Shown one piece after another: positions 4,549 through 43,678 of a stretch of 49,739 bases of DNA. The first letter of the stretch is position 1. Each line of letters opens with the position of its first letter. The notes below the pieces were generated by a model. It searched no databases, was not told the origin of the DNA, and was given only the letters and a program-made list of their open reading frames with translations. The position numbers and the translations under genes are program-made. This stretch comes from Desulfobacterales bacterium. GTDB taxonomy: Bacteria; Desulfobacterota; Desulfobacteria; Desulfobacterales; SKZT01. Location of the stretch: positions 1-49,739 of the forward strand of contig JAGYNR010000004.1 in assembly GCA_018399715.1 (NCBI GenBank), given 5' to 3'.

Positions 4549-4760
4549 GAATTTTTCCTCAAGGTATTTTAACATCTGTTTTATAGGTGATTCATAAGAA
4601 AGGAATACGGATTTGTCAAGGAATTGTCTATGCAGATTCTATTCAAAACATCATATATTTATGATATACGGGCTAAAAAGAAAATCATTAATTTTTGGTC
4701 TTTGAACGGCCTGTAACTGAAACTGAGTTTAGGTGTAAATCTGCTACCACACATGGGAAA

Positions 4761-6815: not shown

Positions 6816-6852
6816 TTAGATCAACAATCAGCAATCAACAATCATTATTGTC

Positions 6853-7512: not shown

Positions 7513-7573
7513 ATATGATAGTCTTGATTTTGGGCAATGAATTGGGTTGTCTTTTGAAAAATCGGAATGATGG

Positions 7574-8602
7574 ATGATACGGCACTTGCAAAGCCCCCGT
7601 TTTTTTGTAATAGCGTTGGTTGCAGGACTGGCCATTGTTGTAATGTTGCTGCTAAAAGAAGGGATCAGGGAAGTTTGGACAGCCCTGATGATGGTCGGCT
7701 GGAATATTTTCTGGTTGCTGGCGTTTCGGTTTGTGCCCATGGCAATAGATGCGGCCGGGTGGCGATACCTGGTTGTATGCCCCGCTGTTCCGGGCTTTGC
7801 CGGTTTTTTGTTGTATCGATGGGCCGCCGAATCCTGTAATACGCTTTTGCCGGCTGCTCAGGTAGGCGGTCACCTGGTCCGGGCTCTGATGTTGGCCCGT
7901 CGGTTGCCCTCCCGGGCTATGGCCGGAGCTTCCGTTGTGGTTGACTTTACGGTGGGGGTTGGCACCCAGTTTCTGTTTATTATGGGCGGACTCTTGCTGT
8001 TACTGTTTGAGGTGCCCCCGGCTTCGAACATGGCTTTTGCCGTAATCGTGTCGGGTGGGCTCCTGGTGATGGGCGGCTTTATTTTTGTTCAGTATCGGGG
8101 CATATCCGGTGTTTTTAACCGAATTGCCTCGCGCTTTATGAATAACCGTCAGATGATGCAGGTTGCGGGTGGTTTGGAGGCACTTGAAAAAGAAGCGTAT
8201 CGTCTGTATTCGGATTATCATCGATGGATAATATGCGCCTTTGTGCGGTTTGCCGGCTGGATGATGAAAAGTGGTGAAACCTATCTGGTGCTTCTTTTTT
8301 TGGGGGCTTCCCCATCAATTACGGAAGCCGTGATTCTTGAAGCTGTTGGTATAGCTGCCAATAGTTTTGGTTTTCTGGTACCGGGGGCTGTTGGGGTGCG
8401 CGAGGGAGGCATTTTTGCCGTTGCCGCCTTACTGGGGATATCTCCGGAGACGGCTCTGGCGCTTGCACTGATCAAACGGGGCAGGGAACTGGCGGTGGGG
8501 CTTCCCGGTTTGGCGGCATTGCTCATCTTTGAAAAGGATATCCTGTTAAGTCCCCGCATGTATATTAGAAAAAAAGCCGGTAATACCAAAGAGACAAATT
8601 GA
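7574..8602 (+). CDS. hpnL: Hopanoid-associated integral membrane protein HpnL-like
   Basis: A 342-residue polytopic membrane protein related to the lysylphosphatidylglycerol synthase transmembrane (UPF0104/LPG_synthase_TM) family. Six to eight hydrophobic helices are visible. The loop FLVPGAVGVREGG near residues 268-280 is the typical conserved motif of this family, and LLPAAQVGGHLVRALML (about 92-108) is the other. Position between hpnM and hpnN identifies it as HpnL (hopanoid-associated membrane protein). Biochemical activity is unknown. ATG 7574 has only a weak ribosome site. Its stop is one base before the hpnN start, suggesting coupled translation. Confidence 0.85.
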   Translation: MIRHLQSPRFFVIALVAGLAIVVMLLLKEGIREVWTALMMVGWNIFWLLAFRFVPMAIDAAGWRYLVVCPAVPGFAGFLLYRWAAESCNTLLPAAQVGGHLVRALMLARRLPSRAMAGASVVVDFTVGVGTQFLFIMGGLLLLLFEVPPASNMAFAVIVSGGLLVMGGFIFVQYRGISGVFNRIASRFMNNRQMMQVAGGLEALEKEAYRLYSDYHRWIICAFVRFAGWMMKSGETYLVLLFLGASPSITEAVILEAVGIAANSFGFLVPGAVGVREGGIFAVAALLGISPETALALALIKRGRELAVGLPGLAALLIFEKDILLSPRMYIRKKAGNTKETN

Positions 8603-8603
8603 G

Positions 8604-11258
8604 ATGTTGCGCTGCCTTCGTGAACATACCCCTTGTCTTCCGGATTGGCTGCCCGGATTGATTGTTCGAAGGGCGCCATTGATTCTGATTTTTTCACTGG
8701 TGCTGACGGTTGGCCTGACCGTTTATACCGTTTTGACCTTTCAAATCGATACGGATTTTACCAAGATGGTATCCGACAGATTAGCGTTTCGCCGGGAACT
8801 CAACCGATTCAACCATGCTTTTCCTCAGTTTCATAATTCCCTCCTTTTGGTAATCAAGGCGACAACACCCGAAAAGGCCGCAATTGTACGCGATGTATGT
8901 GTCGAACATTTGCAGGGACAACCGGAGGTTTTTCGGTCTGTTTTTGCCCCGCGAGGAAATACCTTTCTCGCCGCAAATGCTCTTTTGTATCGAACTCCCG
9001 AGGAATTGGTGAAGATGGCTGACAATCTGGCAGTTATGCAGCCGTTTCTGGGATCGATGGCCCGGGAGATGAGCCTGGAAAATCTTTTTACAATGCTGGC
9101 CAGGATATTTAGTACTGATACCGACGGTTTGGATCAGGACCGGCTGAATCTTCTGCTGGCCGAATTGAATGAGACGGTTGTAAAAGTATCTTCAGGCAAA
9201 AGTAATTGGATTTCCTGGCAGAATTTAATGAGAGGACAGTCAGCAGATAAGATGTGTCGTGAATTTGTGATACTGGTTCCCTGCCTGGACTATTTCTCCT
9301 TAAATCCCATTAAAACTGCCATGAACCATATTGAGCGTGTCAGGACAGAAATTATCCGAAAAGACTTTGCAGATGTCTCGGTAAATGTCACCGGAAAACT
9401 GGCCTTAAATGTGGATAACCTGATCAGTGTGCGTAGGGGCATCTGCTTGGCAGGTGGTGTTTCGCTCGGGATGGTGCTGGTCATATTGATTTGGGGCTTA
9501 AAATCCGGCCGTATGGTTATTTTCAGCCTGATCACGCTCCTGACAGGACTTGGCTGGACATTTGGGTTTGCCATGCTGGCCATCGGCCGGCTTAACATTA
9601 TATCTATTACCTTTGTGGTTTTGTTTGTTGGTTTGGGCATTGATTACAGCATTCAATTTTGTTTGCGGTACAAAGAACTGATTGAAAACGGACAACATCA
9701 CATCGGTGCAATTCGGCAAACATTGCAGGATATCGGCAATACCCTGTTACTGTGTTCTTTGACAACAGCTACCGGATTTTACGCATTTGTTCCCACATCC
9801 TACAGCGGAGCCTCTGAACTGGGGCTGATTGCCGGAACCGGCATGTTTGTCAATTTGCTGGTCAATATCACCGTGTTGCCATCGCTGATTTACTTGTGGC
9901 CACCGCTGTTCGTAAAGCGTCTATCGTCTTCCCGAAAATTAAAAACCATTATTTTTGGCATTCCTGTTCGGTTTCCCAAAATCGTTTTGATTGTGTCGGC
10001 TGCTGTTTTTCTGGTTAGCCTTTTTTTGTTACCCAAGGTGCGGTTTGACTATAATCCCATCAACTTAAACGATCAGAAAGCACCGTCTGTAAGAACGGCC
10101 CGGGAATTGCTGAAACAATCAGATACCTCGATCTGGACGGCTTCTGTACTGTGTGATTCTGCCGAAGAAGCAAATCGGATGGCCCAGCGTCTGGAAACGC
10201 TGCCGGAGGTTGAACATACGATGATGCTTGATGATCTCGTACCCTCCGGTCAGGCGCAAAAAATTCGACTGATCGAAGAGATGGCCTGGTTTATGCCGGT
10301 TGTCGATGCCAATAGCCATATTGTCGAAAATTCGGTTGAAAATGTCATTGCGGCACTGAATCAATTCCGAAACGCTCTTTGCGGTTATCGGGACAACACC
10401 TCCGGAGGTTCAGACGAATCCAGGGGGATAATAGATGATATTGATCTTCTGATGAAACGGCTGGATAATTCGGACGAAGCAACCATCATTATCGATCAGT
10501 TGGAAACGGCTATGCTGGTTCCGTTGATGTATCTTCTGAAACAGCTTTCGGGATTAATGCAACCGCAAATCTTTACAGCCGAACAATTACCGGTGGAACT
10601 AAAATCCCGGTATATATCAGGTAGTATTTATCGGGTAGAAGTATTTCCCCGGAAAAATCTGAACAATTTGGAAGCACTTGAACAGTTTGTTACCGCGGTT
10701 AAAAAAACCGCACCACGGGCTACCGGCACGCCGGTCGGCATTGTCGGTGCAGGTCAGGCTATATCGAAAGCATTTATGCAAGCATTTATCATTGCGCTTT
10801 CAGCCGTTACAATCCTGTTGGTTTTTGCCACGCCAAGGTTTGGGGAGGTCTTACTGATTCTTGCACCCCTGATCATTTCTTTGGGGCTGACTGCCGGCGC
10901 TACCGTAATTTTTGAAATTCCCTTCAACTTTGCTAATATTATTGTGGTTCCCCTGTTGCTGGGTATCGGCTTGGATTATGGTATTCATCTGGTCCATCGA
11001 TTTCGTTTACAATCGGTTGATGATAAGACAATTCTTTCGACCAGCACGGCCAGGGGCGTTTTGTTCAGCGCCTTGAGTACGATTTTAAGTTTCAGCAGTC
11101 TTTCTGTTTCATCCCATCGGGGAACTGCCAGCATTGGTATCATGTTGAGCCTGAGTGTTACAATCATGATCGGATGCACACTGGTGGTGCTACCGGCCTT
11201 GTTGCAAATCTTTTCAGCACGGTTTTTATCCGGCGGCGCGAATGAAAGGAGCATTTAA
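8604..11258 (+). CDS. hpnN: Hopanoid-associated RND transporter
   Basis: An 884-residue inner-membrane transporter of the MmpL/RND superfamily. An N-terminal helix at about 26-46 is followed by a large periplasmic loop, a five-helix block at about 275-440, a second periplasmic loop and a second block at about 725-875. Each block has the G-x-G-x-D-Y motif (VGLGIDYSIQF and LGIGLDYGIHL) where RND pumps carry proton-relay residues. HpnN is known in Rhodopseudomonas to move hopanoids to the outer membrane. Its stop overlaps the start of hpnA by one base (TAATG). Confidence 0.94.
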   Translation: MLRCLREHTPCLPDWLPGLIVRRAPLILIFSLVLTVGLTVYTVLTFQIDTDFTKMVSDRLAFRRELNRFNHAFPQFHNSLLLVIKATTPEKAAIVRDVCVEHLQGQPEVFRSVFAPRGNTFLAANALLYRTPEELVKMADNLAVMQPFLGSMAREMSLENLFTMLARIFSTDTDGLDQDRLNLLLAELNETVVKVSSGKSNWISWQNLMRGQSADKMCREFVILVPCLDYFSLNPIKTAMNHIERVRTEIIRKDFADVSVNVTGKLALNVDNLISVRRGICLAGGVSLGMVLVILIWGLKSGRMVIFSLITLLTGLGWTFGFAMLAIGRLNIISITFVVLFVGLGIDYSIQFCLRYKELIENGQHHIGAIRQTLQDIGNTLLLCSLTTATGFYAFVPTSYSGASELGLIAGTGMFVNLLVNITVLPSLIYLWPPLFVKRLSSSRKLKTIIFGIPVRFPKIVLIVSAAVFLVSLFLLPKVRFDYNPINLNDQKAPSVRTARELLKQSDTSIWTASVLCDSAEEANRMAQRLETLPEVEHTMMLDDLVPSGQAQKIRLIEEMAWFMPVVDANSHIVENSVENVIAALNQFRNALCGYRDNTSGGSDESRGIIDDIDLLMKRLDNSDEATIIIDQLETAMLVPLMYLLKQLSGLMQPQIFTAEQLPVELKSRYISGSIYRVEVFPRKNLNNLEALEQFVTAVKKTAPRATGTPVGIVGAGQAISKAFMQAFIIALSAVTILLVFATPRFGEVLLILAPLIISLGLTAGATVIFEIPFNFANIIVVPLLLGIGLDYGIHLVHRFRLQSVDDKTILSTSTARGVLFSALSTILSFSSLSVSSHRGTASIGIMLSLSVTIMIGCTLVVLPALLQIFSARFLSGGANERSI

Positions 11259-12250
11259 TGGAGTTAGTTATTGGCGGCAGCGGGTTTATCGGTTGTCGGT
11301 TGGTAGAAATTTTAAAACGAAACCGGCAGCGGGTAAGGGTTTTTGATATAAATCCCTATCCGGTTGACGAATCTGTTCAACCGGATGAAATGATGGTTGG
11401 TACGGTTTTAGATTTGAATGCGCTGATGGCTGCACTGAAAGACTGCCATAATGTGTATCATCTGGCGGCAAACCCCATGCTTTGGCATCCGCAATCCGGG
11501 ATCTTTGACCAGGTCAACCGGAAAGGAACCGAAAATGTTGTCACAGCAGTTAACAGGGCGGATGTCAGGCGACTGGTCTATACCAGTACCGAGTCCATAC
11601 TGGTCCCGCCCAACCACAAAGGTCCTGTTAATGAGGATGTTCGGACTTCCTTGGCTGATATGATCGGGCCATACTGCCGGTCAAAGTTTTTGGCGGAACG
11701 CTGTGTCTTAAAACTGGCAAAAAGCGGATTTCCGGCTGTGATTGTCAACCCAACCATGCCAATAGGTCCCTGCGACCGGAATCTGACTCCCCCGGGACAA
11801 ATGATTCGTAATTTTCTGTTGGGAAAAATCAAGGGATATATGGACGGTAGTCTCAATATCGTAGATGTTCGGGATGTCGCGGCCGGTCATTTTCTGGCGA
11901 TGCAAAAGGGCATTTCCGGCAGGCGATATATCCTGGGCGGTACCAATTTGTCAGTTAAAGATTTTTTTGATCGGCTGGCTGCCTTGTCAGGTTGTCCGGC
12001 ACCTCGTTTCAAAATACCATATTTTATGGCACTGGCCTTTGCATACATAGAGGAGGCATACGCCGGCCTGACAGGCCGGCGGCCTTTGAGCTCTGTTACC
12101 GGTATACGGCTGCTTCGAAGGTCACTGATCTTTGACAGTACCCGGACATGGCGTCAGTTGGATCATACCTGCTATTCTGTTGATGACACTTTAAAAAATT
12201 CGGTTTTCTGGCATCGTCAAAAGCTGATAGAAGAAGGTACAACAATATAA
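11258..12250 (+). CDS. hpnA: Hopanoid-associated NAD(P)-dependent sugar epimerase
   Basis: A 330-residue extended short-chain dehydrogenase of the HpnA family. The Rossmann motif GGSGFIGCRLV is at residues 6-16. The catalytic Y-x3-K reads Y139-CRS-K143 (GPYCRSKFLAE), with the Ser/Thr of VYTSTESIL upstream. HpnA is assigned to side-chain or sugar modification of hopanoids, but its exact reaction is not established. It is the last gene of the operon, sharing one base with hpnN. A 198-bp gap separates it from the next lipoprotein gene. No squalene synthase genes (hpnCDE) or hpnH/hpnG are in the window, so they must lie elsewhere. Confidence 0.9.
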   Translation: MELVIGGSGFIGCRLVEILKRNRQRVRVFDINPYPVDESVQPDEMMVGTVLDLNALMAALKDCHNVYHLAANPMLWHPQSGIFDQVNRKGTENVVTAVNRADVRRLVYTSTESILVPPNHKGPVNEDVRTSLADMIGPYCRSKFLAERCVLKLAKSGFPAVIVNPTMPIGPCDRNLTPPGQMIRNFLLGKIKGYMDGSLNIVDVRDVAAGHFLAMQKGISGRRYILGGTNLSVKDFFDRLAALSGCPAPRFKIPYFMALAFAYIEEAYAGLTGRRPLSSVTGIRLLRRSLIFDSTRTWRQLDHTCYSVDDTLKNSVFWHRQKLIEEGTTI

Positions 12251-28426: not shown

Positions 28427-29869
28427 ATGGAAAAAACAAAGATTCCGGAAGAAAACGACGCGGCCAAAATTTTAATTGTCGACGATGAACCGTTAATATG
28501 TAATGCTTTGTCCCGCCTGATGAAAAGAAATGGTTTCGTTCCCTTGGTGGCCTATGAAGAGCATTCGGCTCTGGAGATGCTGCGCATCGAAATACCGGAC
28601 GTTGTGCTGTTGGATTTTCGAATGCCCAGCATGAACGGAATGGAGCTGATGAAAAAAGCCAAACAGCTGGATCCGGATCTTCCGGTAGTGATGATAACTG
28701 CGTATGCCGATGTTCATGGTGCCGTAGATGCCATGCGGGCCGGTGCGCATGACTATCTCGCCAAGCCGTTTGACCATAACGAAGTGATTCGGATCGTTCA
28801 CAGGGCCGTTTCAGAAAGAAAGCTGAAGATTAAGTTGAAAAACCTCTCCGCCCAATTGGGGGATCGATTGGTTCTTCGCAAACTGATGGGGCATAGTGAG
28901 GCGGTAGGCAAAATTATCATGGACATCAACAAAGTTGCGGCCTCCGACTTTTCAGTTATCATACTCGGAGAAACAGGATCAGGAAAGGAACTGGTCGCAA
29001 AGGCTATTCACCAGGCCAGTTCCAGGCGAGACGGTCCTTTTGTGGCCATCGATTGCGGTGCCATTCCGGAAACGCTGTTGGAAAGCGAGCTTTTCGGCTA
29101 TGAAAAAGGGGCTTTTACAGGCGCCGTAAAACGAAAACCGGGCAAATTTGAAATTTGCCAAAATGGAACCTTATTGTTGGACGAAATGTTCAACATGTCC
29201 ATGGCGGCTCAGGCCAAGCTTCTAAGAGTTCTTCAGGAAAGAAAATTCAATCGCATAGGCGGTACGCAACCAGTAAGCATGGATGTAAGGCTTCTGGTAG
29301 CGACCAACCGGGATCTGGAGGAAAGCTCCTTTGCCAATTTCCGAAAGGATCTGTTTTTTCGTCTAAATGAATTTACCATCAGAATTCCGCCGTTGAGAAA
29401 TCGAAAGGAAGACATTCCGTATCTGGCCAATCGTTTTCTAAAGTCGACGAACCTGGAATTGCAGAAGAATGTAAGGGGATTTAGCGAAGGAGCAATCGAC
29501 ATGCTGCTATCGTATGACTGGCCGGGAAACGTTCGTGAGCTTCGGTCGCTGATTCGAAGGGCAGTGCTGATAGCTGATGATCTGATCCTTGAAAAACATT
29601 TAGAAATCAAACGATCTTCACGAATAGAGAACGCTTCAGAGAACAAAAAAGGTGTTATCGAGTGGAAGGAATGTTCATTGAAGGAAATTGTGCGCAACAA
29701 GACCTTAGCAGTGGAACGGGAAGTGCTGACGGAGGTGCTCGATTACACGGATGGAAACAAGGCTAAAGCTGCGCGTCTTTTAAAAATCGATTACAAGACA
29801 ATCCATAATAAACTGAAAAGCTTTGGCATTACACCCAAAGGAGGAAAAAATGGCGGATCGACGGAATAA
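28427..29869 (+). CDS. gvrA: Sigma-54-dependent response regulator (NtrC family)
   Basis: A 480-residue activator. Receiver domain 1-125 with D19-D20, phospho-Asp D63 and K113. The AAA+ domain has Walker A GETGSGKE (181-188), the sigma-54 contact loop G-A-F-T-G-A at 228-233 and Walker B TLLLDE. A Fis-type helix-turn-helix is at the C-terminus (NKAKAARLLKIDYKTIHNKL). Position before gvpH and domain form match GvrA of the Serratia gas vesicle cluster. The two near-consensus sigma-54 promoters of this locus are its expected targets. It overlaps gvpH by 20 bases. Confidence 0.93.
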   Translation: MEKTKIPEENDAAKILIVDDEPLICNALSRLMKRNGFVPLVAYEEHSALEMLRIEIPDVVLLDFRMPSMNGMELMKKAKQLDPDLPVVMITAYADVHGAVDAMRAGAHDYLAKPFDHNEVIRIVHRAVSERKLKIKLKNLSAQLGDRLVLRKLMGHSEAVGKIIMDINKVAASDFSVIILGETGSGKELVAKAIHQASSRRDGPFVAIDCGAIPETLLESELFGYEKGAFTGAVKRKPGKFEICQNGTLLLDEMFNMSMAAQAKLLRVLQERKFNRIGGTQPVSMDVRLLVATNRDLEESSFANFRKDLFFRLNEFTIRIPPLRNRKEDIPYLANRFLKSTNLELQKNVRGFSEGAIDMLLSYDWPGNVRELRSLIRRAVLIADDLILEKHLEIKRSSRIENASENKKGVIEWKECSLKEIVRNKTLAVEREVLTEVLDYTDGNKAKAARLLKIDYKTIHNKLKSFGITPKGGKNGGSTE

Positions 29870-30344
29870 AAAAGAAACGGGTTCCGTGTTTGACGGTATA
29901 CTCGATTTTTTGGAAAAAGTAGGGGACTTGGCCGAAAAGGGCGAACAACTGAGCAAGACGGTACAGGTGGAGGGAAAAGATAAAAGTGTAAAAGGGGTCT
30001 ACGGATTTTCCATGAAGTTCGGACTTGGAGGAGAAAAGCCCGAGGTTCAACCCTTTGGAAATATCCGGCCCGACGAAAGATCGGGCGAATCGTTTGTCCA
30101 AGAAGTTCGGGAACCGCTGGTGGATATTTTTGAGGAAAAGGACCATACGCTAATCGTAGCTGAAATGCCTGGTGTCAGCGAAAATGACATCAAGATTGAA
30201 GTCAACGACGACCTTCTCGAAATTAAGGCCGAGAAGGGAGAAAAGAAATATCGTAAGGAAATTCTTCTGCCCCGGGCGTATCCAAAGGAAAAAATGACGA
30301 CATCTTGTAACAACGGCATCTTGGAGATCAAATGCGAAATGTAA
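29850..30344 (+). CDS. gvpH: Gas vesicle-associated Hsp20/alpha-crystallin protein
   Basis: A 164-residue small heat shock protein. The N-terminal 80 residues include a FDGILDFLEKVGDLAEKGEQ helix seen in gvpH-type proteins. The alpha-crystallin domain (about 85-164) has LIVAEMPGVSENDIKIEV and ends with the N-G-I-L-E-I-K motif, near the family's G-x-L hallmark. ATG 29850 is fixed by AAAGGAGG. It overlaps the gvrA end and, depending on the start chosen, the next gene. Likely chaperones GvpA or accessory proteins during vesicle assembly. Confidence 0.85.
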   Translation: MADRRNKKETGSVFDGILDFLEKVGDLAEKGEQLSKTVQVEGKDKSVKGVYGFSMKFGLGGEKPEVQPFGNIRPDERSGESFVQEVREPLVDIFEEKDHTLIVAEMPGVSENDIKIEVNDDLLEIKAEKGEKKYRKEILLPRAYPKEKMTTSCNNGILEIKCEM

Positions 30345-30400
30345 ATTTGTTTATGTTTGAAATCCCTTTGGACAAAAACGGAAAGGAAGCTCGAGAAGAA

Positions 30401-32542
30401 ATGAATAAAACAAATCCAGAGCAATTAAAACTCAAGGTTGCCGAAGCCCTTAAAAAGGACGTTGGAAGATCTTACGCCAGGATGGACCCGGAGGACATCA
30501 AAAAAATCGGGGGCTCAATCGGTGATATTGTCGAAATAACGGGCAAAAAAACTGCTGTTTGCAAAGTCATGCCCGCCTATATGGAACAACGGCGGCGTTC
30601 GAGCGTCCAATTGGACGGCATCAGCCGAGAAAACGCAGGTTGTGGCATCGATGAGACCGTTTTGGTTCATAAGACTCCCTGTCTTGGGGCAGATACCGTA
30701 ACCCTTGTACCGATAAACATCACGCCGGCCAAAAGAGACTTAAACTATATTGGAAGTCTTCTGGATGGGCTTCCAGTTATAGCGGGGGATCGTATTCAAG
30801 CGACATTGTTTGGCAGCCGATCAGCTTATTTCAAAGTGGAGAACACGGTTCCCAAGGGGCCGGTCCTGATCAATCCAACTACCCGGTTGATGATCGGAAA
30901 ATCACAGGCCCCGGCAAAAGAAACCAAAAGCCATATCCGTTACGAGGATATCGGCGGATTGAGACATCAGGTGCAAAGAATTCGCGAAATGATCGAACTC
31001 CCATTGAGATTTCCGGAGGTCTTTGAGCGTCTGGGGATAGATGCTCCCAATGGAGTTTTGCTCTATGGTCCGCCGGGTTGCGGTAAAACATTGATTGCCA
31101 GAGCCATTGCACATGAGACCGAGGCTAATTTTTTTTCGGTCAGCGGCCCCGAAGTGGTTCATAAGTTTTATGGTGAAAGTGAAGCTCATCTGCGCAAGAT
31201 TTTCGATGAAGCCAGCCGGAGTGGACCGAGCATTGTCTTTCTGGATGAAATTGACGCCATTGCGCCCCAACGGGAAAAGGTGGTAGGAGATGTTGAAAAA
31301 CGTGTAGTAGCCCAGCTTTTAGCACTGATGGACGGTTTAACGCGTCGGCACAACTTGATTGTAATTGCCGCAACAAACATTCCCAATGCCCTGGATCCAG
31401 CGCTTAGAAGACCGGGTCGTTTTGATCGCGAAATCGGAATTCCCATCCCGGATAAGCACGGCCGGATGGAAATCCTTGACATTCACAGTAGAGGTATGCC
31501 ACTGGCTAAGAATGTTGATATGAAACACTTGGCGGAAATCACACACGGCTTTGTGGGGGCTGACCTCGAAGCCCTGTGCCGTGAGGCTGCAATGATATGT
31601 CTCCGGAGATTTCTTCCGGATATCGACTTCAACATGACTCAAATTCCTTACGATCAGCTCAAAAGTCTTGAGATTTACATGGATGATTTCCGATTGGCGC
31701 TTAAGGAAGTGGAGCCGTCTGCGATTCGAGAGGTTTTCGTAGAAGTCCCCAATGTGAAGTGGAAAGATATCGGGGGAAACGAAGAAATTAAAAAAAGCTT
31801 GGTAGAGGCGGTGGAGTGGCCGATTAATTATCCCCGGCTATTTGAAAAGGCAGGTGTTCGGCCTCCCAAAGGCATACTGCTTTCGGGGCCTCCCGGTTGC
31901 GGAAAGACCCTGTTGGCAAAGGCAATTGCCAATGAGAGCAACGTCAATTTTATTTCGGTCAAAGGACCCGAACTGATATCAAAGTATGTAGGAGAATCGG
32001 AAAAAGGTGTGCGGGAGATTTTCCGTAAAGCCCGACAGGCATCTCCCTGTATTGTGTTCTTTGATGAAATCGACGCCATGGTGGTTTCAAGAGGATCGTC
32101 TGGCTCGGATTCAAGCGTGGCCGAACGAGTGTTGAGCCAGTTTTTATCAGAATTCGATGGAATTGACGAGTTAAAGGGAGTTCTGATACTGGGAGCGACC
32201 AACCGATTGGATATGTTGGATGCTGCGGTTTTAAGACCTGGACGATTCGATGAGATTGTGGAAATTCCACTTCCTGCCGAAAAGGATCGGATGCAAATAT
32301 TTGGGGTGCATTTGAGAAAAAAACCTATAGTCGATGAAATAGATCCCGCGGAGCTTGCAAAGCTTACCGAAGGTTTAAGCGGAGCGGAAATAGAGGCGAT
32401 TTGCAACCGCGCCGCTCTCATGGCCGTCCGAAGGGCTATCAATGATGCTGAAGGCGAACCCAATTCAAACACAGGTGTCAAAATCCAAGCCGCAGACATG
32501 AAAACGGCTATGGAAGCGATGATGACGAAAGGCAGGTTTTAG
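30401..32542 (+). CDS. CDC48/VAT-like double AAA+ ATPase in gvp operon
   Basis: A 713-residue p97/CDC48-family unfoldase. An N-domain double-psi barrel starts with [20 protein letters not shown] and GDIVEI. D1 has Walker [14 protein letters not shown] and Walker [12 protein letters not shown]2 has [13 protein letters not shown] and [10 protein letters not shown]. Arginine-finger segments ([20 protein letters not shown]) are present in both. I prefer ATG 30401, which gives the usual N-domain length. ATG 30332 (with a GGAG site and 13-bp overlap with gvpH) would add 23 residues and is possible. It occupies the position of Serratia gvpZ. Could unfold or remodel Gvp proteins. Confidence 0.9.
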
Positions 32543-32558
32543 AAGAAAAATAACGGTG

Positions 32559-33371
32559 ATGGAAAAGATCGAATCTGGAATTTATTTGTATTGCATAGCA
32601 GCTTCTGACCGGCTGATGAGCCTTAGTTGCCGGGGAATTGAGGAGAACACTGATGTTTGCTCTAAACGTTTTGATGATTTGTGCTTTGTATACAGCCATG
32701 TCAAACTTCATAATTTTACCGGGGCTTCCGGCGACGACAACATGAGGAACATAGAGTGGGTCAGCCCGAGAGCGGTTGCCCACGAAAAAGTTGTCCGACA
32801 CGTTATGAAAATGTCGCCGGTCTATCCAATCAGATTTGCAACCATTTTTTCCTCCATGGAAAGCCTGGAAAAACAATTGGAACCATATTTTTCCAATATC
32901 TCTATTTTTTTACACGAAACCAATGGAAAAGGCGAATATTCGCTAAAAGGCTTTCTGATTCGCAAAAAGATGATCGATTTTTTGTCGAAAAAATTTTTTG
33001 CTTTCGAAATCAAAGCACTTGACGAAATGTTGCCTGGGAAACGGTATTTTGAGAAGCAAAAGCTGATCCGGAGAATCGAGTCAGGTGTTGACACTTTGGC
33101 GAAAGAGGCATTGGAAAATTTTTTGAACTCTTTAATTTCAAGGTTTAAGAAATATAAAAAACGTAAACCGTTGTCGGGCGATTTATGCGGAGATGGTTCC
33201 GAAATGGTTTTCAACCTGGCGTTTTTGATCAAAGACACTGAGCAGGAAATATTCAGAAATCAAATCGCTCAAAGTAAAGCCGACCTGGAGGATAAAGGGC
33301 TTGTCATCCGCTTAACCGGACCCTGGCCTCCCTATAGTTTCTGCAAAAATATCGAGGCGAGGCAATCATGA
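32559..33371 (+). CDS. gvpF: Gas vesicle GvpF/GvpL-family protein (F2)
   Basis: A 270-residue accessory protein. The typical family features are the opening GIYLYCIA, the middle V-A-H-E-K-V-V segment, MSPVYPIRFATIF, and the ending LTGPWPPYSFC. GvpF/L proteins have two alpha/beta domains and are needed for vesicle assembly, binding GvpA. A GTG at 32556 precedes the ATG. Its end overlaps the next gvpF/L gene by 4 bases (ATGA). It is the first of two GvpF/L genes in the regulatory operon. Confidence 0.9.
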   Translation: MEKIESGIYLYCIAASDRLMSLSCRGIEENTDVCSKRFDDLCFVYSHVKLHNFTGASGDDNMRNIEWVSPRAVAHEKVVRHVMKMSPVYPIRFATIFSSMESLEKQLEPYFSNISIFLHETNGKGEYSLKGFLIRKKMIDFLSKKFFAFEIKALDEMLPGKRYFEKQKLIRRIESGVDTLAKEALENFLNSLISRFKKYKKRKPLSGDLCGDGSEMVFNLAFLIKDTEQEIFRNQIAQSKADLEDKGLVIRLTGPWPPYSFCKNIEARQS

Positions 33372-34111
33372 GTGTCTATTGTTTATATTGCATCTTTTCA
33401 GAAAGCAAAGCCTGCCTTCCGGATTCGCATATTCGGGGGGTGAGAGGTCGTCTGGTATATAATTTGTTCAAGAATGGCTTAGGAGCAGCCGTTTCGAAAC
33501 TTGAAACGCCCCCTTCAACAAAGACACAAAATTTGAAAGTTTTTTCAGACGTTATAGCAGAGTATCACAATCATCAAACTGTGATTCCTCTTCGTTTCGG
33601 ATGGATAACCCGGGACGAAGACCAGATTCGATCTGCTCTTCACAACAACGGGAAAATGCTTTGCAACCGGTTGAAATCCTTGAGCGGATGCTCGGAAATG
33701 GGTATCAGAATTTTGGGACAGGTTCCGCCGACAGCGTCAAAGGCAATTTTTGAGAAAAAACGGACAAAAACAGGAAAAGATTTTCTGATGGCCAGAAAAG
33801 CGTTTTATGACCTGACCAAACACGTTCCAATTGAAATCGAAAATAAAATCGAGATGTTAAAGAAAGAATTGTCCGAAACTTATACGGAGTACCGTTTCGA
33901 GAACAACGGAATTCAAATGTCCGGTCCGAATCGTGGATCTGAAAACCGTCTTCTTGTTTCTCTCTTTTTTCTGGTTCCAAATACTTTTACTGAAAAATTT
34001 TGCTCCATTTACAGACAGTTTTTATTTGAAGAAAATATTAGGGCACTATTGAGCGGTCCATGGCCCGTATTTAATTTTGTATCTGATATCGGCGATCTTT
34101 GCAAGCTGTAA
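33368..34111 (+). CDS. gvpF: Gas vesicle GvpF/GvpL-family protein (F3)
   Basis: A 247-residue relative of the preceding gene, with VYCLYCIF at the start, the middle motif TVIPLRFGWITRDEDQI and the ending LLSGPWPVFNF. It is clearly diverged from F2 and F1, as is usual where three GvpF/L copies coexist. The 4-base ATGA overlap points to translational coupling with F2. It likely interacts with GvpA during nucleation. Serratia has gvpF2-gvpF3 at the same place. Confidence 0.88.
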   Translation: MSVYCLYCIFSESKACLPDSHIRGVRGRLVYNLFKNGLGAAVSKLETPPSTKTQNLKVFSDVIAEYHNHQTVIPLRFGWITRDEDQIRSALHNNGKMLCNRLKSLSGCSEMGIRILGQVPPTASKAIFEKKRTKTGKDFLMARKAFYDLTKHVPIEIENKIEMLKKELSETYTEYRFENNGIQMSGPNRGSENRLLVSLFFLVPNTFTEKFCSIYRQFLFEENIRALLSGPWPVFNFVSDIGDLCKL

Positions 34112-36758: not shown

Positions 36759-36977
36759 ATGGCAAAAGTACAAAAAAACACTGATTCTTCAAGTTTAGCG
36801 GAAGTTGTGGACCGTATCTTGGATAAAGGTATCGTAATTGATGCATGGGCCAAGGTATCCCTGGTCGGAATCGAACTTCTCTCGGTAGAAGCAAGAGTGG
36901 TAATCGCTTCTGTTGAAACTTATCTGAAGTATGCCGAAGCAATTGGTCTGACAGCTACTGCAGCTGCACCGGCCTGA
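36759..36977 (+). CDS. gvpA: Major gas vesicle structural protein GvpA
   Basis: A 72-residue shell protein. The core [27 protein letters not shown] (shown in pieces: [24 protein letters not shown]) and the following [26 protein letters not shown] closely match canonical GvpA, including the hydrophobic beta-hairpin and second helix. The tail is short and Ala-rich. ATG 36759 has AAGGAGG six bases away; an adjacent in-frame ATG at 36756 is too close. As the first gene after the sigma-54 promoter and before a strong hairpin, it should be the most abundant gvp transcript. Confidence 0.97.
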
Positions 36978-37111: not shown

Positions 37112-38329
37112 ATGGGCAGTTTTGCGGACGAAATGATACGGCTGAAGTCGGAAATCGATAACCTTTCCGAGAGTCGAATGTCATTTATCAATGATTTGAA
37201 ACAAAACGTCGCCGATAAAAAATTGGACACAGTTAAAATGATGGCTGATTTTCGGAAAGAATATGAAGAAATGGCGAACAACGATAGAAAATCACGCGAT
37301 GACTTTTTGAATCATCTGAACACGTATGTAGCCGATATGCGGGATAATTTCAAAAAAGAACGAGCCAATAGTTCCAGGCGGATGCATGAGGAACTGAATC
37401 AATTTATGACGAATATAAGGAGTTTTGTAACCGATCTTGCTCAGGATGTGGCGCGAATGCAGGAAGGTTTTTGTCAGGAAAGGGGTAACATGGCCGGGGA
37501 GCTCCGTGCGGAACTGAAAGAAGCTATTAATGGCATCAACGCTACGGTGTCGGAATTGAAAAACAAGACGACGGAAATGCAACAAAACTTTCGGAAAACT
37601 TTTGCTGAAACATCCGGAGCAGACCGCAAGGCTAGAACGGACTTTATTTCGGGGTTGAAGTCTGAGGTGGACTCATTGCAAAAATCTTTCTGCAACGCCC
37701 GTTTTGAAACGGCAACAAAAATGAAAGCGGATTTCGCGGAAACCATGAGAGGCTTGAAGGAATTCATGGGAGAATTAAGTGGTTCCGTTGCTCAGATGCA
37801 AGCGGATTTTCTGGATTCAAGACTGGAAACCGCCAGGAAAGGCATTGCGGAAAGGCAGGAATTCATATCGGATTTGGTTCGATCGGTAATGGATATTCGG
37901 AATAAGACCGAGCAGTTTCGAAAGAAATTCGCCGATGATTTGGCCCAGGGTCGTGCGGTATGGTCGTCGGACTCGGCACAGGAGGTTCCAATCGTCTCTG
38001 AAGAAGTAGCAGTTGAAAGTGAGGAAAGTGAGGAAAGTGAGGAAACAGTCGAAACAACAGTCGAAGAAAGCGAGAACGTCAAACCAACGGAGATGATAAA
38101 AACAGATCAAGCACCTGAAGAACAAAAGGAAGAAGATATAGGAAAGGATGATTTGACTTATATTGATGGGATCGGTTCCGGAAGACATAAGCAACTGAAC
38201 GCGGCTGGAATTTATACGTTCAAACAATTGGCTGAAAGCACCGATGACGAAATTCGGGCAGCTCTGGGAGAATCTTCGAGGCATGTTGATGTTGATAAAT
38301 GGATTCAACGCGCGAAAGAATTTGTCTAG
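37112..38329 (+). CDS. gvpC: GvpC-like coiled repeat protein with C-terminal helix-hairpin-helix domain
   Basis: A 405-residue protein at the GvpC position. Residues 22-283 divide into seven helical units of 40, 33, 40, 40, 33, 40 and about 36 residues (starts at R22, R62, L95, L135, R175, F208, R248), each with F-x-x-x-L near the start and M/L-Q-x-x-F in the middle. The 33-residue unit equals the period of cyanobacterial GvpC and 40 is one heptad more. An acidic Glu/Ser/Val linker (about 290-345) leads to a helix-hairpin-helix-like domain at 347-405 (IDGIGSGRHKQLNAAGIYTF). The N-terminal part likely coats the vesicle; the role of the C-terminal domain is unknown. Confidence 0.8.
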   Translation: MGSFADEMIRLKSEIDNLSESRMSFINDLKQNVADKKLDTVKMMADFRKEYEEMANNDRKSRDDFLNHLNTYVADMRDNFKKERANSSRRMHEELNQFMTNIRSFVTDLAQDVARMQEGFCQERGNMAGELRAELKEAINGINATVSELKNKTTEMQQNFRKTFAETSGADRKARTDFISGLKSEVDSLQKSFCNARFETATKMKADFAETMRGLKEFMGELSGSVAQMQADFLDSRLETARKGIAERQEFISDLVRSVMDIRNKTEQFRKKFADDLAQGRAVWSSDSAQEVPIVSEEVAVESEESEESEETVETTVEESENVKPTEMIKTDQAPEEQKEEDIGKDDLTYIDGIGSGRHKQLNAAGIYTFKQLAESTDDEIRAALGESSRHVDVDKWIQRAKEFV

Positions 38330-38380: not shown

Positions 38381-39331
38381 ATGACCAATAATGTTGCCTT
38401 TTTAAAGGAAACCATGATCAGGGCTCCGGTGCCTCAAAATGACGCTGTAGCACCGGAACCCGGCGATGGATTCGTTAACACACCATATGTTCAGGACATT
38501 ACCGAGCGAGCTTTGGCATATCTTCAGGTAGGATACCCGGTTCATTTTGCCGGCCCCGCAGGGACCGGCAAAACTACGCTGGCTTTTCATGTAGCGGCCC
38601 AGCTGAAACGAAGTGTCATGTTGATCCACGGAGATGACGAGTTCGGAAGTTCTGACCTCGTCGGAAAGGATTCAGGATACCGTAAGTCGAGGGTTATCGA
38701 TAACTATATCCACTCGGTAGTAAAGACCGAGGAACAAATGAATACTGTATGGGCGGACAATCGGCTGACGGTTGCCTGCCAAAAAGGGTTTACCCTCATA
38801 TACGACGAGTTTACCAGATCCCGGCCGGAGGCGAATAACGCCTTTTTGAGCGTGCTTGAAGAAAAGATTTTAAATCTTCCCAGACTGAGGAATTTTGGGC
38901 AGGGATACCTTCAGGTCCATCCGGATTTCCGTGCTATCTTTACAAGCAATCCGGAAGAGTACGCCGGGACCCATAAAACCCAGGACGCCATTATGGACCG
39001 CTTAATCACGATTACGCTCAATCACTTCGACTTCGACACCGAAGTGCAGGTAACCATGGCTAAATCGGGGTTGGGAAAACAGGACGCCGAGGTAGTCGTA
39101 ACAATTGTGAGGAAAATGCGGAGTATCGGCGTCAACAACCATCGTCCTACCATCAGGGCATGTATAGCCATTGGAAAAATTCTATCGTACATGGGAGGCC
39201 CCGCTTCAAAAGACAATCCGAATTTTCGGAAAATTTGTCGGGATGTTCTCAATGTGGATACGGCCAAGGTTACTCGCGCCGGAGAACCTTTAATTCAGCG
39301 AAAAATCGATGCTACCATCGATGATCTATAA
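38381..39331 (+). CDS. gvpN: Gas vesicle AAA+ ATPase GvpN
   Basis: A 316-residue MoxR-type ATPase. Walker A GPAGTGKTTLAFH lies at about 58-70, Walker B as FTLIYDEFTRSRPEANNAFL, and sensor-1 FTSNPEEYAG. These, with the family phrase LIHGDDEFGSSDLVG, identify GvpN. GvpN enlarges vesicles or promotes their maturation, using ATP. It is 51 bp after the GvpC-like gene. Confidence 0.96.
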   Translation: MTNNVAFLKETMIRAPVPQNDAVAPEPGDGFVNTPYVQDITERALAYLQVGYPVHFAGPAGTGKTTLAFHVAAQLKRSVMLIHGDDEFGSSDLVGKDSGYRKSRVIDNYIHSVVKTEEQMNTVWADNRLTVACQKGFTLIYDEFTRSRPEANNAFLSVLEEKILNLPRLRNFGQGYLQVHPDFRAIFTSNPEEYAGTHKTQDAIMDRLITITLNHFDFDTEVQVTMAKSGLGKQDAEVVVTIVRKMRSIGVNNHRPTIRACIAIGKILSYMGGPASKDNPNFRKICRDVLNVDTAKVTRAGEPLIQRKIDATIDDL

Positions 39332-39376: not shown

Positions 39377-39697
39377 ATGAACAATACCAACAGAAAGCCC
39401 ATCAGAGGATTACAGGACATCAGAACCAATTCGGGTAAGATAGATCATCTTTCTCATCCGCATATGGCGTATATGAGAATAAGCTGCCTGGAAATGGAAA
39501 AAGCGAGAAAAATCAAGGAAAAGGATAGCGCACTTCGCAGGATCGCAATAATAGATGATCGTATCCGGGAAATAGAAGAGGAAAAGAGAGACATTCAAAG
39601 GGTTATGGCAGAGCAGGAAGCCACTCAAAAACAACCATGTGGCTGCCAAAACAACCGGGCTCCTTGCGAAAATGATATTTTCAAAATTCGATACTGA
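39377..39697 (+). CDS. gvpV: Small gas vesicle accessory protein, GvpV-like
   Basis: A 106-residue basic coiled protein. HPHMAYMRISCLEMEKARKIKE (centre) and ALRRIAIIDDRIREIEEEK form a helix pair, and the C-terminus has C-G-C and a further Cys. It is located exactly where Serratia has gvpV (after gvpN, before gvpF1), and the M-R/K-I-S-C/S-L-E-M-E-K-A-R core is what I recall for GvpV. Assignment is moderately sure; function unknown. Confidence 0.7.
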   Translation: MNNTNRKPIRGLQDIRTNSGKIDHLSHPHMAYMRISCLEMEKARKIKEKDSALRRIAIIDDRIREIEEEKRDIQRVMAEQEATQKQPCGCQNNRAPCENDIFKIRY

Positions 39698-39765: not shown

Positions 39766-40524
39766 ATGACAAAAGAACCCTCGCACAATACCGGCCGGTA
39801 TCTATACGCTGTTGTCGACAGGACGGATAATCTTGACTATGGTCCTATCGGAATCGAGGAATCTGCTGTATATACAATTTCCGACGGGATCATATCCGCT
39901 GTTGTCAGCAATATTTCGAACAAAAAACTACGACCGCAACGAAAAAACCTGGCGGCTCATCAAAATGTCCTTAAAAAAATTATGGAACATACCACTCCCC
40001 TTCCGATGGCATTCGGGATCATTGCAAACGGAGAAAAAGCCATCAGGAAAATTCTCACGGACAATAAAGAGATTTTCACCGAAAAGTTAAATCTTACGGC
40101 AGGGAAAGTGGAGATGGGAATGAGGGTTTCGTATGATGTTCCCAACATTTTCGAATATTTTATATCAATATATCCGGACCTCAGGGCAGCTAGAGACCGG
40201 TTTTTCGGAGGATACCGTGAACCCAGCCAAGAGGCTAAACTGGAATTGGGACGTATGTTTGACAGGTTGTTGAACGAAGACAGGGAAAAACACGTCAGCA
40301 AAGTCGAACATGTACTGACCTCATATTGTCATGAAATCTTAAGAGGCCGGTTCAGAAACGAGCAGGAAGTGATGAACCTTGCCTGTCTTATCGGAAGAAA
40401 TGAGCAGGAACATTTTGAAGAGGGCGTTTTCAAGGCAGCGGGATTGTTCAACAATAATTTTTCGTTCGAGTACAACGGTCCGTGGGCGCCTCATAATTTT
40501 GTGAATATTAATCTAAAACTCTGA
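39766..40524 (+). CDS. gvpF: Gas vesicle GvpF/GvpL-family protein (F1)
   Basis: A 252-residue protein, the most typical of the three GvpF/L paralogues in the window. YLYAVVDRTD at the start, LAAHQNVLKKIMEHTTPLPM in the middle, and the ending FEYNGPWAPHNFVNINL match family conservation. It is adjacent to gvpG as in most gvp clusters. GvpF contacts GvpA in the early assembly complex. Confidence 0.95.
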   Translation: MTKEPSHNTGRYLYAVVDRTDNLDYGPIGIEESAVYTISDGIISAVVSNISNKKLRPQRKNLAAHQNVLKKIMEHTTPLPMAFGIIANGEKAIRKILTDNKEIFTEKLNLTAGKVEMGMRVSYDVPNIFEYFISIYPDLRAARDRFFGGYREPSQEAKLELGRMFDRLLNEDREKHVSKVEHVLTSYCHEILRGRFRNEQEVMNLACLIGRNEQEHFEEGVFKAAGLFNNNFSFEYNGPWAPHNFVNINLKL

Positions 40525-40544: not shown

Positions 40545-40775
40545 ATGTTGCTTGTAGACGACGTTTTATTTTCGCCCATAAAAAGCATTTTCTGGATATT
40601 TCGGGAGATTCACAACGCTGCTCATCAGGAAAAGGCCAACGAAGCCGAATCTTTGACTGCGGAGTTGAGCGAGCTTTACATGATGCTCGAAACGGGAAGA
40701 ATAACAGAGGAACAATTCGACGAAAGAGAAGGGCAAATCCTGGACAGGCTGGATGAAATCCAGAGCAAAGAATAA
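40545..40775 (+). CDS. gvpG: Gas vesicle protein GvpG
   Basis: A 76-residue helical protein. The opening MLLVDDVLFSPIKSIFWIFREI and the ending ITEEQFDEREGQILDRLDEI are characteristic of GvpG. GvpG is a small, essential accessory protein in most gas vesicle operons. It lies 20 bp after gvpF1. A segment (EEQFDEREGQILDRL) is shared with many other Gvp-associated helices. Confidence 0.93.
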   Translation: MLLVDDVLFSPIKSIFWIFREIHNAAHQEKANEAESLTAELSELYMMLETGRITEEQFDEREGQILDRLDEIQSKE

Positions 40776-40833
40776 ACCAAACCTGCATATAATCATCATA
40801 ACGCAATAATCGATGGCTTCGGTAAGGAAAAAA

Positions 40834-42756
40834 ATGAATCCAAAATCTTTATTCAACGGAAAAAATTTTCAACTGATTTTTTTCGGCGGTAAAGGCGGTG
40901 TTGGAAAAACGTCTTGCGCTGTTGCATATAGCCTGACACTAGCATCCAGTAGACCCGGTTCTGAATTTTTACTGGTTTCCACAGATCCTGCTCATTCCAT
41001 TGACGACAGCCTCGATAGTTTTCAACCTCCCCCCAATCTGACGATTCGATGTATAGAAGCTACCGAATGCCTGGAAAAATTCAAAAACAAAAATCAAGGA
41101 AATCTGAAAGAAATCGCTCTGAGAGGAACTTTTTTCGACGAGATCGATATTGAGAACATCTTGGATCTCTCTTTTCCGGGTCTTGACGAACTGATGGGAT
41201 TTTTAGAGATTGCAGAATCGGCAGCTTCGGAAAAATATGAATCCATCATTGTCGATACTGCACCCACCGGCCATACGCTTCGTCTTTTGGAAATGCCGAA
41301 GCTGGTAGGAACATGGCTTGATGCCATAGATGCTCTTCTCGCCAAATATCGATACATGAAAAAGCTTTACAGGGGAACTTATCAAAAGGAAAATATTGAT
41401 GCTTTCCTGTTAAATCTTTCCGAATCCGTAAAACAAATGGAAGCCTTGTTCACGAGCAAGAAAAAATGCCGGTTTGTTCCGGTACTAATCCCTGAACCGT
41501 TGATCCTTTTCGAAACCGAAAATTTGATCAGCAGTTTGCGCTTGGCGCGATTTCCTGTATCTGATATTATTATAAACCGAATTTGCCCGCCAACCAACTG
41601 TCCCGTTTGTTCAGATATGCGCCGAAGACAGTTGGTCTGTCTTTCCGATTTTTCAAAAATGCTTTCGGGTTATCGATTATGGGGAGTTCCTCTGTATGCT
41701 GAAGAAGTCGGAGGCAATTTGTTGACCGATATCTTCTGGCAAAGTGCCAATGAAGTTGATATCGAACAAGAAATTGACGTTGACCGGCCTGGAAAATCCC
41801 TATTCAACGCAACCGTCGAAAATCCTGCGCCTTTTCCTGACAAGAATTTAAAGTTTATCATTTTTGCCGGGAAAGGGGGTGTCGGCAAAACCACATTGGC
41901 GTGTTCAACGGCCTGCGGCCTGGCCCAAAAGTACAAAGACAGGGAAATATTTTTGTTTTCTACGGATCCGGCGCACTCACTTTCCAGGTGTTTGAAAAAA
42001 ACGATCGGATCAAGTCCTGTAAGAATTTCACCAAGACTTACCGCAATGGAAATCAACGCTCCGGAAAGTTACAGGGAATTGAAACAAACGTATGCCGATG
42101 AATTGGAAAAATTTTTGCAGCGGTTCTCTGCCAACATGAATTTAACCTTTGACCAGGAGGCAATGAAACATCTGATGGACTTAGCACCACCGGGGATAGA
42201 CGAGGTGATGGCACTGAATCTGGCCATGGAGTATATGGCCGGAGGACAATACGACTTGTTCGTTTTGGACTCCGCTCCAACAGGACACTTGCTTCGGCTG
42301 CTTGAAACACCGGAACTCATGGACAGATGGCTGAAAACCATTTTCGGTATCTTTTTGAAATATAAAAACATATTTCGCCTGCCCGGTCTGTCGCAAAAAC
42401 TGGTGGGAATTTCCAAGCACCTAAAAATATTGCGAAAAACATTATCCGATAAAAGAAGGTCGGCTATTTTCGCTGTTTCTATCCTGACACGCATGGCGTT
42501 GGAGGAAACCGTTGATCTGGTATCCTCCTGTAATTCGATCGGTGTCAATACACCGGTCCTTTTCCTGAACATGGCCATTCCAAACAGTTCCTGTCAATTA
42601 TGCGCCTCTATTTACAACAGAGAACAATCGGTCCGAAAAAAATTCAAGGCATTCTTTCCGAAACAATTTCAAACTATTATCTATCGTCATCCAGACCCCA
42701 CCGGCATTGAGGAACTTGAAAACCTGGCATCATTAATCTACAAAGGGTTGGGATAA
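40834..42756 (+). CDS. Tandem Get3/ArsA-like ATPase in gvp operon
   Basis: A 640-residue protein of two ArsA/Get3-type halves. Deviant Walker A motifs G-G-K-G-G-V-G-K-T occur at 18-27 and 346-353 region (FFGGKGGVGKT, FAGKGGVGKT). Switch motifs STDPAHS and DTAPTGHTLRLLE / DSAPTGHLLRLLE are in both halves. Each half has a C-x-x-C pair (C256/C259 and C587/C590), as in the zinc-binding motif of Get3. ATG 40834 follows AAGGA; the ATG at 40813 is less likely. There is no arsenic gene nearby. It occupies the place of Serratia gvpW. A chaperone or targeting role for hydrophobic GvpA is my inference. Confidence 0.92.
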   Translation: MNPKSLFNGKNFQLIFFGGKGGVGKTSCAVAYSLTLASSRPGSEFLLVSTDPAHSIDDSLDSFQPPPNLTIRCIEATECLEKFKNKNQGNLKEIALRGTFFDEIDIENILDLSFPGLDELMGFLEIAESAASEKYESIIVDTAPTGHTLRLLEMPKLVGTWLDAIDALLAKYRYMKKLYRGTYQKENIDAFLLNLSESVKQMEALFTSKKKCRFVPVLIPEPLILFETENLISSLRLARFPVSDIIINRICPPTNCPVCSDMRRRQLVCLSDFSKMLSGYRLWGVPLYAEEVGGNLLTDIFWQSANEVDIEQEIDVDRPGKSLFNATVENPAPFPDKNLKFIIFAGKGGVGKTTLACSTACGLAQKYKDREIFLFSTDPAHSLSRCLKKTIGSSPVRISPRLTAMEINAPESYRELKQTYADELEKFLQRFSANMNLTFDQEAMKHLMDLAPPGIDEVMALNLAMEYMAGGQYDLFVLDSAPTGHLLRLLETPELMDRWLKTIFGIFLKYKNIFRLPGLSQKLVGISKHLKILRKTLSDKRRSAIFAVSILTRMALEETVDLVSSCNSIGVNTPVLFLNMAIPNSSCQLCASIYNREQSVRKKFKAFFPKQFQTIIYRHPDPTGIEELENLASLIYKGLG

Positions 42757-42786: not shown

Positions 42787-43020
42787 ATGTCTGAAATAAT
42801 CATAGGAGAAAAAAACCAACAGGTTTCGCTTTGTGAAGCTTTGGACAGGGTCTTAAACAAGGGTGCGGTCATCGTTGGAGAGGTAACCATTTCCGTAGCG
42901 GATATTGATCTTGTCTACCTGGGGCTTCAGGCGGTATTGACATCGGTCGAAACTGCAAAAAAAATGACGCAAACGCAACTAGAGGATCATTTGAGGGAAC
43001 CGCAAAATGAACATGACTGA
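42787..43020 (+). CDS. gvpJ: Minor GvpA/GvpJ-family structural protein (A2)
   Basis: A 77-residue GvpA-fold protein. The core LCEALDRVLNKGAVIVGEVTIS (in pieces: LCEALDRVLNKG, VIVGEVTISVADID) and VYLGLQAVLTSVETA match the family, but the second strand is GEVTISVAD rather than AWAKVSLVG, as in GvpJ/GvpM/GvpS minor proteins thought to form vesicle tips. The charged tail (QTQLEDHLREPQNEHD) extends past GvpA. It overlaps gvpK by 14 bases. Confidence 0.88.
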   Translation: MSEIIIGEKNQQVSLCEALDRVLNKGAVIVGEVTISVADIDLVYLGLQAVLTSVETAKKMTQTQLEDHLREPQNEHD

Positions 43021-43369
43021 AAAAATACAGGTCGAGTCCCAAACCGCGAAAGATTTCGTAAGGCTGATGACCAATAATCATCTCTCCCGCAGCCCAAAAA
43101 ATTCGGCGGAGCATTTGAACATAAACGAGGAAAACGTCAAAAACGGACTTGCGCAGCTTGTCTTAACCTTGATTAAGCTTCTTCATGAACTACTTGAAAA
43201 ACAGGCGATCCGACGTATTGATTCTGAATCTTTGACCGATGAACAAATCGAGCGTCTCGGATTGACCCTTATGAAACAGTCCGAGGAAATCGAAAGGCTA
43301 CGCCTGGCGTTCAATATTGAAGAAAATGATTTGAACCTCAATTTGGGCCCTTTAGGAAAGCTTCTTTAA
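43007..43369 (+). CDS. gvpK: Gas vesicle protein GvpK
   Basis: A 120-residue protein. The C-terminal two-thirds, INEENVKNGLAQLVLTLIKLLHELLEKQAI and RRIDSESLTDEQIERLGLTLM, is the diagnostic GvpK sequence (given here in short pieces: NGLAQLVLTLIKLLHELLEK, LTDEQIERLG). GvpK is an essential assembly factor in most clusters. The start overlaps the upstream GvpJ-type gene, and a second ATG two codons on is possible. Confidence 0.95.
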   Translation: MNMTEKIQVESQTAKDFVRLMTNNHLSRSPKNSAEHLNINEENVKNGLAQLVLTLIKLLHELLEKQAIRRIDSESLTDEQIERLGLTLMKQSEEIERLRLAFNIEENDLNLNLGPLGKLL

Positions 43370-43384
43370 AAAGGAAAAAACACC

Positions 43385-43678
43385 ATGTCCATTCAACGCT
43401 CAGCTCAGCATTCTGTAGAAAGCACCAACATCGCAGACCTTTTGGAACGGATCTTAGACAAAGGAATTGTCATTGCTGGTGATATCAAAATCAGCCTGGT
43501 GGATATTGAACTGTTATCGATACAGTTAAGACTTGTGGTTTGCTCCGTGGAAAAGGCCAAGGAAATGGGGATGGACTGGTGGGTGAACAATCCGGTTTTC
43601 ACCCATAACAACGATCCAGTCGTTAAGGCACTGTCTAAAATCGAAAACCGACTAGAAAAACTGGAAGCCTCCGGATAG
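43385..43678 (+). CDS. gvpJ: Minor GvpA/GvpJ-family structural protein (A3)
   Basis: A 97-residue GvpA-fold protein. The core [22 protein letters not shown] (pieces: [28 protein letters not shown]) is the GvpJ/S version. The C-terminal extension WWVNNPVFTHNNDPVVKAL, then a short helix, is not in GvpA. AAAGGAAAAAA precedes the ATG. Last gene of the gvp operon; Serratia has gvpX between gvpK and gvpA3, which is missing here. Confidence 0.87.
   Translation: MSIQRSAQHSVESTNIADLLERILDKGIVIAGDIKISLVDIELLSIQLRLVVCSVEKAKEMGMDWWVNNPVFTHNNDPVVKALSKIENRLEKLEASG

Follow-up and report, generated by a model that had tools for sequence, protein, structure and literature searches.

A tandem Get3-like ATPase linked to gas-vesicle genes in a Desulfobacterales bacterium

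A gas-vesicle gene cluster with a tandem ATPase gene

The window, i.e., the whole 49,739-nt stretch of Desulfobacterales DNA analysed here (contig JAGYNR010000004.1), carries what looks like a complete gene cluster for gas vesicles (gvp), which are flotation organelles (Table 1). The first part of the cluster consists of genes for a sigma-54 regulator, an Hsp20 protein, a CDC48-type ATPase, two GvpF/L proteins, and a histidine kinase with a response regulator. The second part runs gvpA1, a gvpC-like gene, gvpN, a gene for a small protein at the gvpV position, gvpF, gvpG, the tandem ATPase gene, gvpA2, gvpK and gvpA3. We used the right operon of Serratia ATCC 39006 as the gene order for comparison (PMC4982088). 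Among the cluster products, GvpA1 and GvpA2 rank highest in hydrophobicity (median 19-residue hydropathy of 1.80 and 1.82, respectively). In Serratia, the slot held here by the tandem ATPase is presumably occupied by gvpW. The small protein encoded between gvpN and gvpF, kept at that place in most relatives, is probably GvpV.

An earlier note on this DNA had placed the ATPase gene between gvpG and gvpA2, with no arsenic genes around it. Both statements agree with our Pfam scan of the window ORFs, which identified gvpG on the 5′ side and a gvpA-like gene on the 3′ side of the ATPase gene, and found no ars genes among the ORFs scanned. The start given in that note, 40834, lies in frame but is the second Met codon; the ORF opens at 40813 and encodes 647 amino acids. 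Residue numbers used here count from the Met at 40834 (M1).

Table 1. Features of the gas-vesicle cluster and of the tandem ATPase, with positions in the window
Feature	Position	Strand	Basis
Sigma-54-activator response regulator, GvrA-like by position	28427..29869	+	Pfam; order as in Serratia right operon
Hsp20 (GvpH-like)	29823..30344	+	PF00011; weak PF17886 "HSP20-like domain found in ArsA"
CDC48-type double AAA+ ATPase, GvpZ position	30332..32542	+	Pfam
GvpF/L	32556..33371	+	PF06386
GvpF/L	33368..34111	+	PF06386
gvpA1, major shell protein	36759..36977	+	PF00741; PRK09371 above cut-off; start from translations
GvpC-like protein	37112..38329	+	Position; similar ORFs at the equivalent place in relatives
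gvpN AAA+ ATPase	38381..39331	+	PF07728; position and relatives
Small protein, GvpV position	39377..39697	+	No Pfam match; position
GvpF/L	39766..40524	+	PF06386
gvpG, directly upstream of tandem ATPase	40545..40775	+	PF05120
Tandem Get3/ArsA-fold ATPase, gas-vesicle-linked	40813..42756	+	ORF; PF02374 x2; TIGR00345 349 bits; model
P-loop 1, GKGGVGKT (signature-lysine, deviant Walker A)	40888..40911	+	Sequence; intact in T1 N-halves
N-half putative client-binding segment, 59 aa, hydrophobic, near Get3 length	41296..41472	+	Alignment to Get3, ArsA, CrArsA1
CxxC 1 (C256/C259)	41599..41610	+	65/65 and 63/65 conserved
P-loop 2, GKGGVGKT	41869..41892	+	Sequence; column conservation
C-half putative client-binding segment, 52 aa, WLKTIFGIFLKYKNIF...	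42310..42465	+	Alignment
CxxC 2 (C587/C590)	42592..42603	+	52/65 and 64/65 conserved
gvpA2 (GvpA family, minor), directly downstream of tandem ATPase	42787..43020	+	PF00741
gvpK	43007..43369	+	PF05121
gvpA3 (GvpA family, minor)	43385..43678	+	PF00741

Domains, motifs and putative client-binding segments of the tandem ATPase

Pfam finds two matches to ArsA_ATPase (PF02374) in the protein (360 bits, E 1e-107). The protein scores 349 bits with TIGR00345 (GET3_arsA_TRC40), well above the 135 needed, but only 168 bits with TIGR04291, the arsenical-pump equivalog, which requires 650; the ParA and MinD profiles are likewise missed (44 of 180 and 25 of 213 bits, respectively). Structure prediction gave a confident model (pLDDT 85.8, pTM 0.85), which in a fold search matches tandem ArsA, Chlamydomonas ArsA1 (CrArsA1) and Get3. 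Tandem ArsA structures come out on top, but the search cannot separate ArsA from Get3 in this case, as full-length coverage gives an advantage to tandem targets, which align with a larger part of the query. The best PDB sequence match is CrArsA1 (5zme). No alpha-crystallin domain, the C-terminal mark of Get3d, was found in the chain with Pfam. The host genome has one further strong ArsA/Get3 match, a single one, at another place.

Both halves contain the Get3/TRC40 P-loop GKGGVGK[T/S], switch I (STDPAHS) and switch II (D[T/S]APTGH), the last occurring once per half as DTAPTGH and DSAPTGH. The description of two P-loop halves, each with a CxxC pair of its own, holds to the residue (C256/C259 and C587/C590); the conservation of these cysteines was counted over an alignment of 65 sequences. 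In the same alignment, C386 (window 41989-41991), which follows the C-half switch I, is invariant (65/65).

The halves differ in the switch-I Asp of Get3 (yeast D57), which is present in 68 of 74 N-halves but in only 38 of 70 C-halves. The window protein has Arg in its place in the C-half. With this residue lost from the C-half of many members, hydrolysis may run mainly in the N-half.

The segments corresponding to the client-binding region of Get3 were delimited by alignment columns, with Get3, ArsA and CrArsA1 aligned. They are unequal between the two halves of the tandem ATPase (59 and 52 aa), with a median of 22 large hydrophobic residues. For comparison, Get3 has 64-68 aa with 25 large hydrophobics, and the ArsA segments are 45 aa (10 large hydrophobics) and 33 aa (8). 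Judged by these alignments, the putative client segment resembles that of Get3 in both size and hydrophobicity, and not that of ArsA.

Linkage to gas-vesicle genes and distribution

We surveyed 395 genomes of the phylum, combining a search for the ATPase with a GvpA survey of the identical genome set. Orthologues with 47-52% identity (T1) occur in 12 other genomes, a more distant tandem form (T2) in seven, and a gvp-associated single-domain relative in three. T1 genes always adjoin gvp genes, and adjoin gvpG wherever the contig includes it. All 13 T1 genomes (the window's own counted), six of the seven with T2 and all three with singles are gvpA-positive. A gvp-type ATPase is present in 22 of 36 gvpA-positive versus one of 359 gvpA-negative genomes (Fisher p 1e-25, a value that ignores kinship).

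Furthermore, a collection-wide genome scan with an N-half alignment fragment as the query returned 80 loci, some of which are contigs already present in the phylum survey; the scan pattern was built from gvp-linked proteins, linkage itself being no selection criterion. All 80 relatives sit in gvp clusters. The gene directly follows gvpG in 70 of the 71 cases with an upstream gene, and directly precedes gvpA2 in 67 of 74, gene names in the relatives being those of the best phmmer matches to the window proteins. The loci come from Acidobacteriota, Desulfobacterota, Verrucomicrobia, Planctomycetes, Rokubacteria, Methylococcaceae, Ignavibacteria, Myxococcales and others, and the recurrence of the identical slot rules out chance. 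The closest relative of the window protein is that of Desulfocicer vacuolatum DSM 3385, and a distant tandem member occurs in a plasmid-borne gvp cluster of Nostoc sphaeroides. The notion that the protein is devoted to gas vesicles is thus strongly supported by the linkage and the co-occurrence, and its gas-vesicle role is near certain.

The three single-domain gvp ATPases (L059, 236-1177; L061, 9006-10082; L062, 18938-19609) have an Hsp20 gene as neighbour and, on contigs that extend far enough, a CDC48-type gene as well. Three of the T2 tandems (L054, L056 and L057) carry variable low-complexity inserts with MTNDQCPMTN-type repeats after switch I of each half.

Four gvp clusters of the same type (L151, L161, L163 and L164) have gvpG directly followed by gvpA2, without the tandem ATPase gene; in a GvpN tree, clusters lacking the ATPase fall at several spots (losses or absences). 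The existence of such related clusters implies that the tandem ATPase is auxiliary and not obligatory, and that GvpA is manageable without it.

Relation to ArsA, Get3 and earlier descriptions

That two-domain ArsA homologues are linked to gvp genes is not new. Castillo and Saier reported such proteins in gvp operons in 2010, stated the gvp-linked forms to be two-domain, found the metalloid cysteines missing outside the arsenic cluster, and proposed that these homologues "energize a biogenic step", otherwise unspecified (PMC2963123). A study of 2017 described the co-occurrence of ArsA with gas-vesicle genes in cyanobacteria (PMC5464585). With two ArsA_ATPase domains, a gvp operon and no ars genes, the window protein falls into the class of Castillo and Saier; it resembles their clusters 4 and 6, the members of which are two-domain proteins of about 640 aa, encoded in gvp operons, with neither ars genes nor metalloid cysteines. 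What is new with respect to that work is the assignment to the Get3 type by Get3-like features, the existence of single-domain gvp relatives, the constancy of the gvpG-gvpA2 slot across many phyla and the asymmetry of the catalytic Asp. A search of openly accessible papers found none joining gas vesicles with Get3 or TRC40.

The ArsA metalloid cysteines C113, C172 and C422 correspond to Gly, a non-Cys residue and Gly in all 79 relatives, and the site is missing from the window protein too. CxxC is found in both halves of most T1 and of all five full T2 proteins, as well as in both full-length gvp singles, versus none of four plasmid ArsA proteins; the cyanobacterial (Nostoc) gvp version is without it. 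In a tree of halves, all gvp-linked halves and the gvp singles form one group (95), within which the singles branch with the N-halves (93). The N- and C-halves of ArsA make up a separate group, and those of CrArsA1 pair with each other. Long branches (Nostoc, Giardia, the other copy in the window's genome) blur the details. A topology joining all ArsA and gvp N-halves in one clade is disfavoured (p-AU 0.024), and with it a shared origin of the two duplications. This phylogeny, proposed in the earlier note as a check, does not show firm grouping with the arsenite pumps, since the gvp-linked halves branch outside ArsA; it suggests that fusion took place at least three times separately (gvp-linked, ArsA and CrArsA1), and the tandem gvp ATPase is apparently a fusion independent of ArsA. 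The occurrence of single-domain gvp forms is in keeping with a dimer that preceded the fusion. The "single-chain Get3 dimer" suggested earlier is well supported at the sequence level by CxxC in both halves, the lack of metalloid cysteines, the client segment and the position in the tree.

Compared to known systems, the window protein shares with archaeal and eukaryotic Get3/TRC40 (3zq6, 3ug6, 7spz), a chaperone of hydrophobic proteins, the P-loop, both switches, the CxxC motif (through which Get3 binds zinc across its dimer) and the hydrophobic client segment. It differs in being fused in one chain instead of a homodimer of single-domain chains, in client segments of unequal length that fall short of those of Get3 by 5-16 aa, in a C-half switch-I Asp that is often lost, and in its gas-vesicle context instead of a membrane one. 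No Get1/2-type receptor was found among the Pfam-scanned genes. With the switch-I Asp replaced in the C-half, we file it as Get3-like, not as a canonical Get3. CrArsA1 is likewise a single-chain pseudo-dimer with Get3-like client segments; it has no CxxC in the aligned N-half stretch, and its halves are mutual sisters, apparently from a separate fusion. ArsA arsenite ATPases (1f48, 9nbw) are similar in tandem architecture and fold but differ in metalloid cysteines, CxxC, client segment and neighbouring ars genes. Get3d of cyanobacteria and plants has the Get3 fold and a hydrophobic client domain in common with the window protein; it is single-domain, without CxxC and fused to an alpha-crystallin domain (PMC10248533), a link that recurs in the window cluster as a separate Hsp20 gene.

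Proposed function

Cells have to keep the very hydrophobic shell proteins of gas vesicles soluble until assembly. The need to chaperone GvpA has been proposed from other systems (PMC9501494, PMC11445434), and GvpF and GvpG are already proposed GvpA chaperones (PMC11445434). We propose, with a probability of roughly 0.55, that the tandem ATPase acts as a single-chain Get3-like protein shielding GvpA-family proteins before assembly. A Zn bound jointly by both CxxC motifs would pin the two halves together. With ATP, they would close to enclose a single asymmetric hydrophobic groove, which would transiently cover hydrophobic segments of GvpA-family subunits. The likeliest clients would be the minor GvpA2 and GvpA3 encoded alongside, and/or GvpA1. 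ATP hydrolysis would free the subunits to the GvpF/GvpG/GvpN assembly machinery, the delivery target being the growing vesicle and not a membrane. The cluster's Hsp20 protein and CDC48-type ATPase would work in parallel. GvpA is not tail-anchored, which counts against a client reading of the Get3 type. A more specific version, in which one half is hydrolytic and the other mainly structural in many members while the asymmetric chain, as a Get3-type targeting factor for an organelle that has no membrane, passes GvpA-family subunits to the growing gas-vesicle rib, is put forward tentatively. Gas vesicles serve as ultrasound reporters, and assembly factors may limit their yield. Should a Get3-like ATPase indeed have this task across many phyla, the principle of Get3 would reach beyond membrane insertion and include an organelle made of protein and filled with gas.

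The fixed slot between gvpG and gvpA2 would, taken alone, fit either partner, so that the ATPase could instead be a nucleotide switch acting on the soluble GvpF, GvpG or GvpK, e.g., in timing complex assembly, with no shell subunit as client. The unspecified energising role of Castillo and Saier is in line with such a switch. Nonetheless, both halves keep long hydrophobic client segments, while ArsA, without such a protein client, lost them, and we consider the switch rather unlikely.

The conserved CxxC, the Hsp20 and CDC48-type genes in the cluster and the location of the single-domain form between those two genes would also suit a holdase that is switched on by redox changes or stress, as Get3 is when oxidised. 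Together with Hsp20 and the CDC48-type ATPase, it would deal with Gvp aggregates as a quality control and take no part in normal delivery. The tandem form is, however, fixed beside gvpG and gvpA2, not Hsp20, and its nucleotide motifs are conserved, which makes the holdase improbable.

As a member of the same deviant Walker A superfamily, with weak matches to the ParA and MinD profiles, the protein might place or segregate gas vesicles in the manner of MinD/ParA; those scores are far under their cut-offs, that for TIGR00345 is far over its own, and a positioning ATPase leaves the hydrophobic client segment unexplained, so that we regard this as very unlikely. Targeting of tail-anchored membrane proteins with no connection to gas vesicles has a precedent in CrArsA1, a fused pseudo-dimer reported to handle such proteins, and would accommodate the Get3-like client segment and CxxC; it is hardly credible given the gvp linkage of all 80 relatives and the near absence of the gene from gvp-minus genomes. 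An ArsA arsenite-pump ATPase present by chance, as the Pfam/ArsA name, the tandem architecture and the top fold match might suggest, is excluded by the missing cysteines, the equivalog score, the lack of ars genes among the window ORFs scanned and the tree.

Apart from the gas-vesicle cluster, the window contains a row of genes for a squalene-hopene cyclase, MlaC, an LPG-synthase-like protein, an MMPL protein and an epimerase (4695-12250), which looks like a hopanoid operon.
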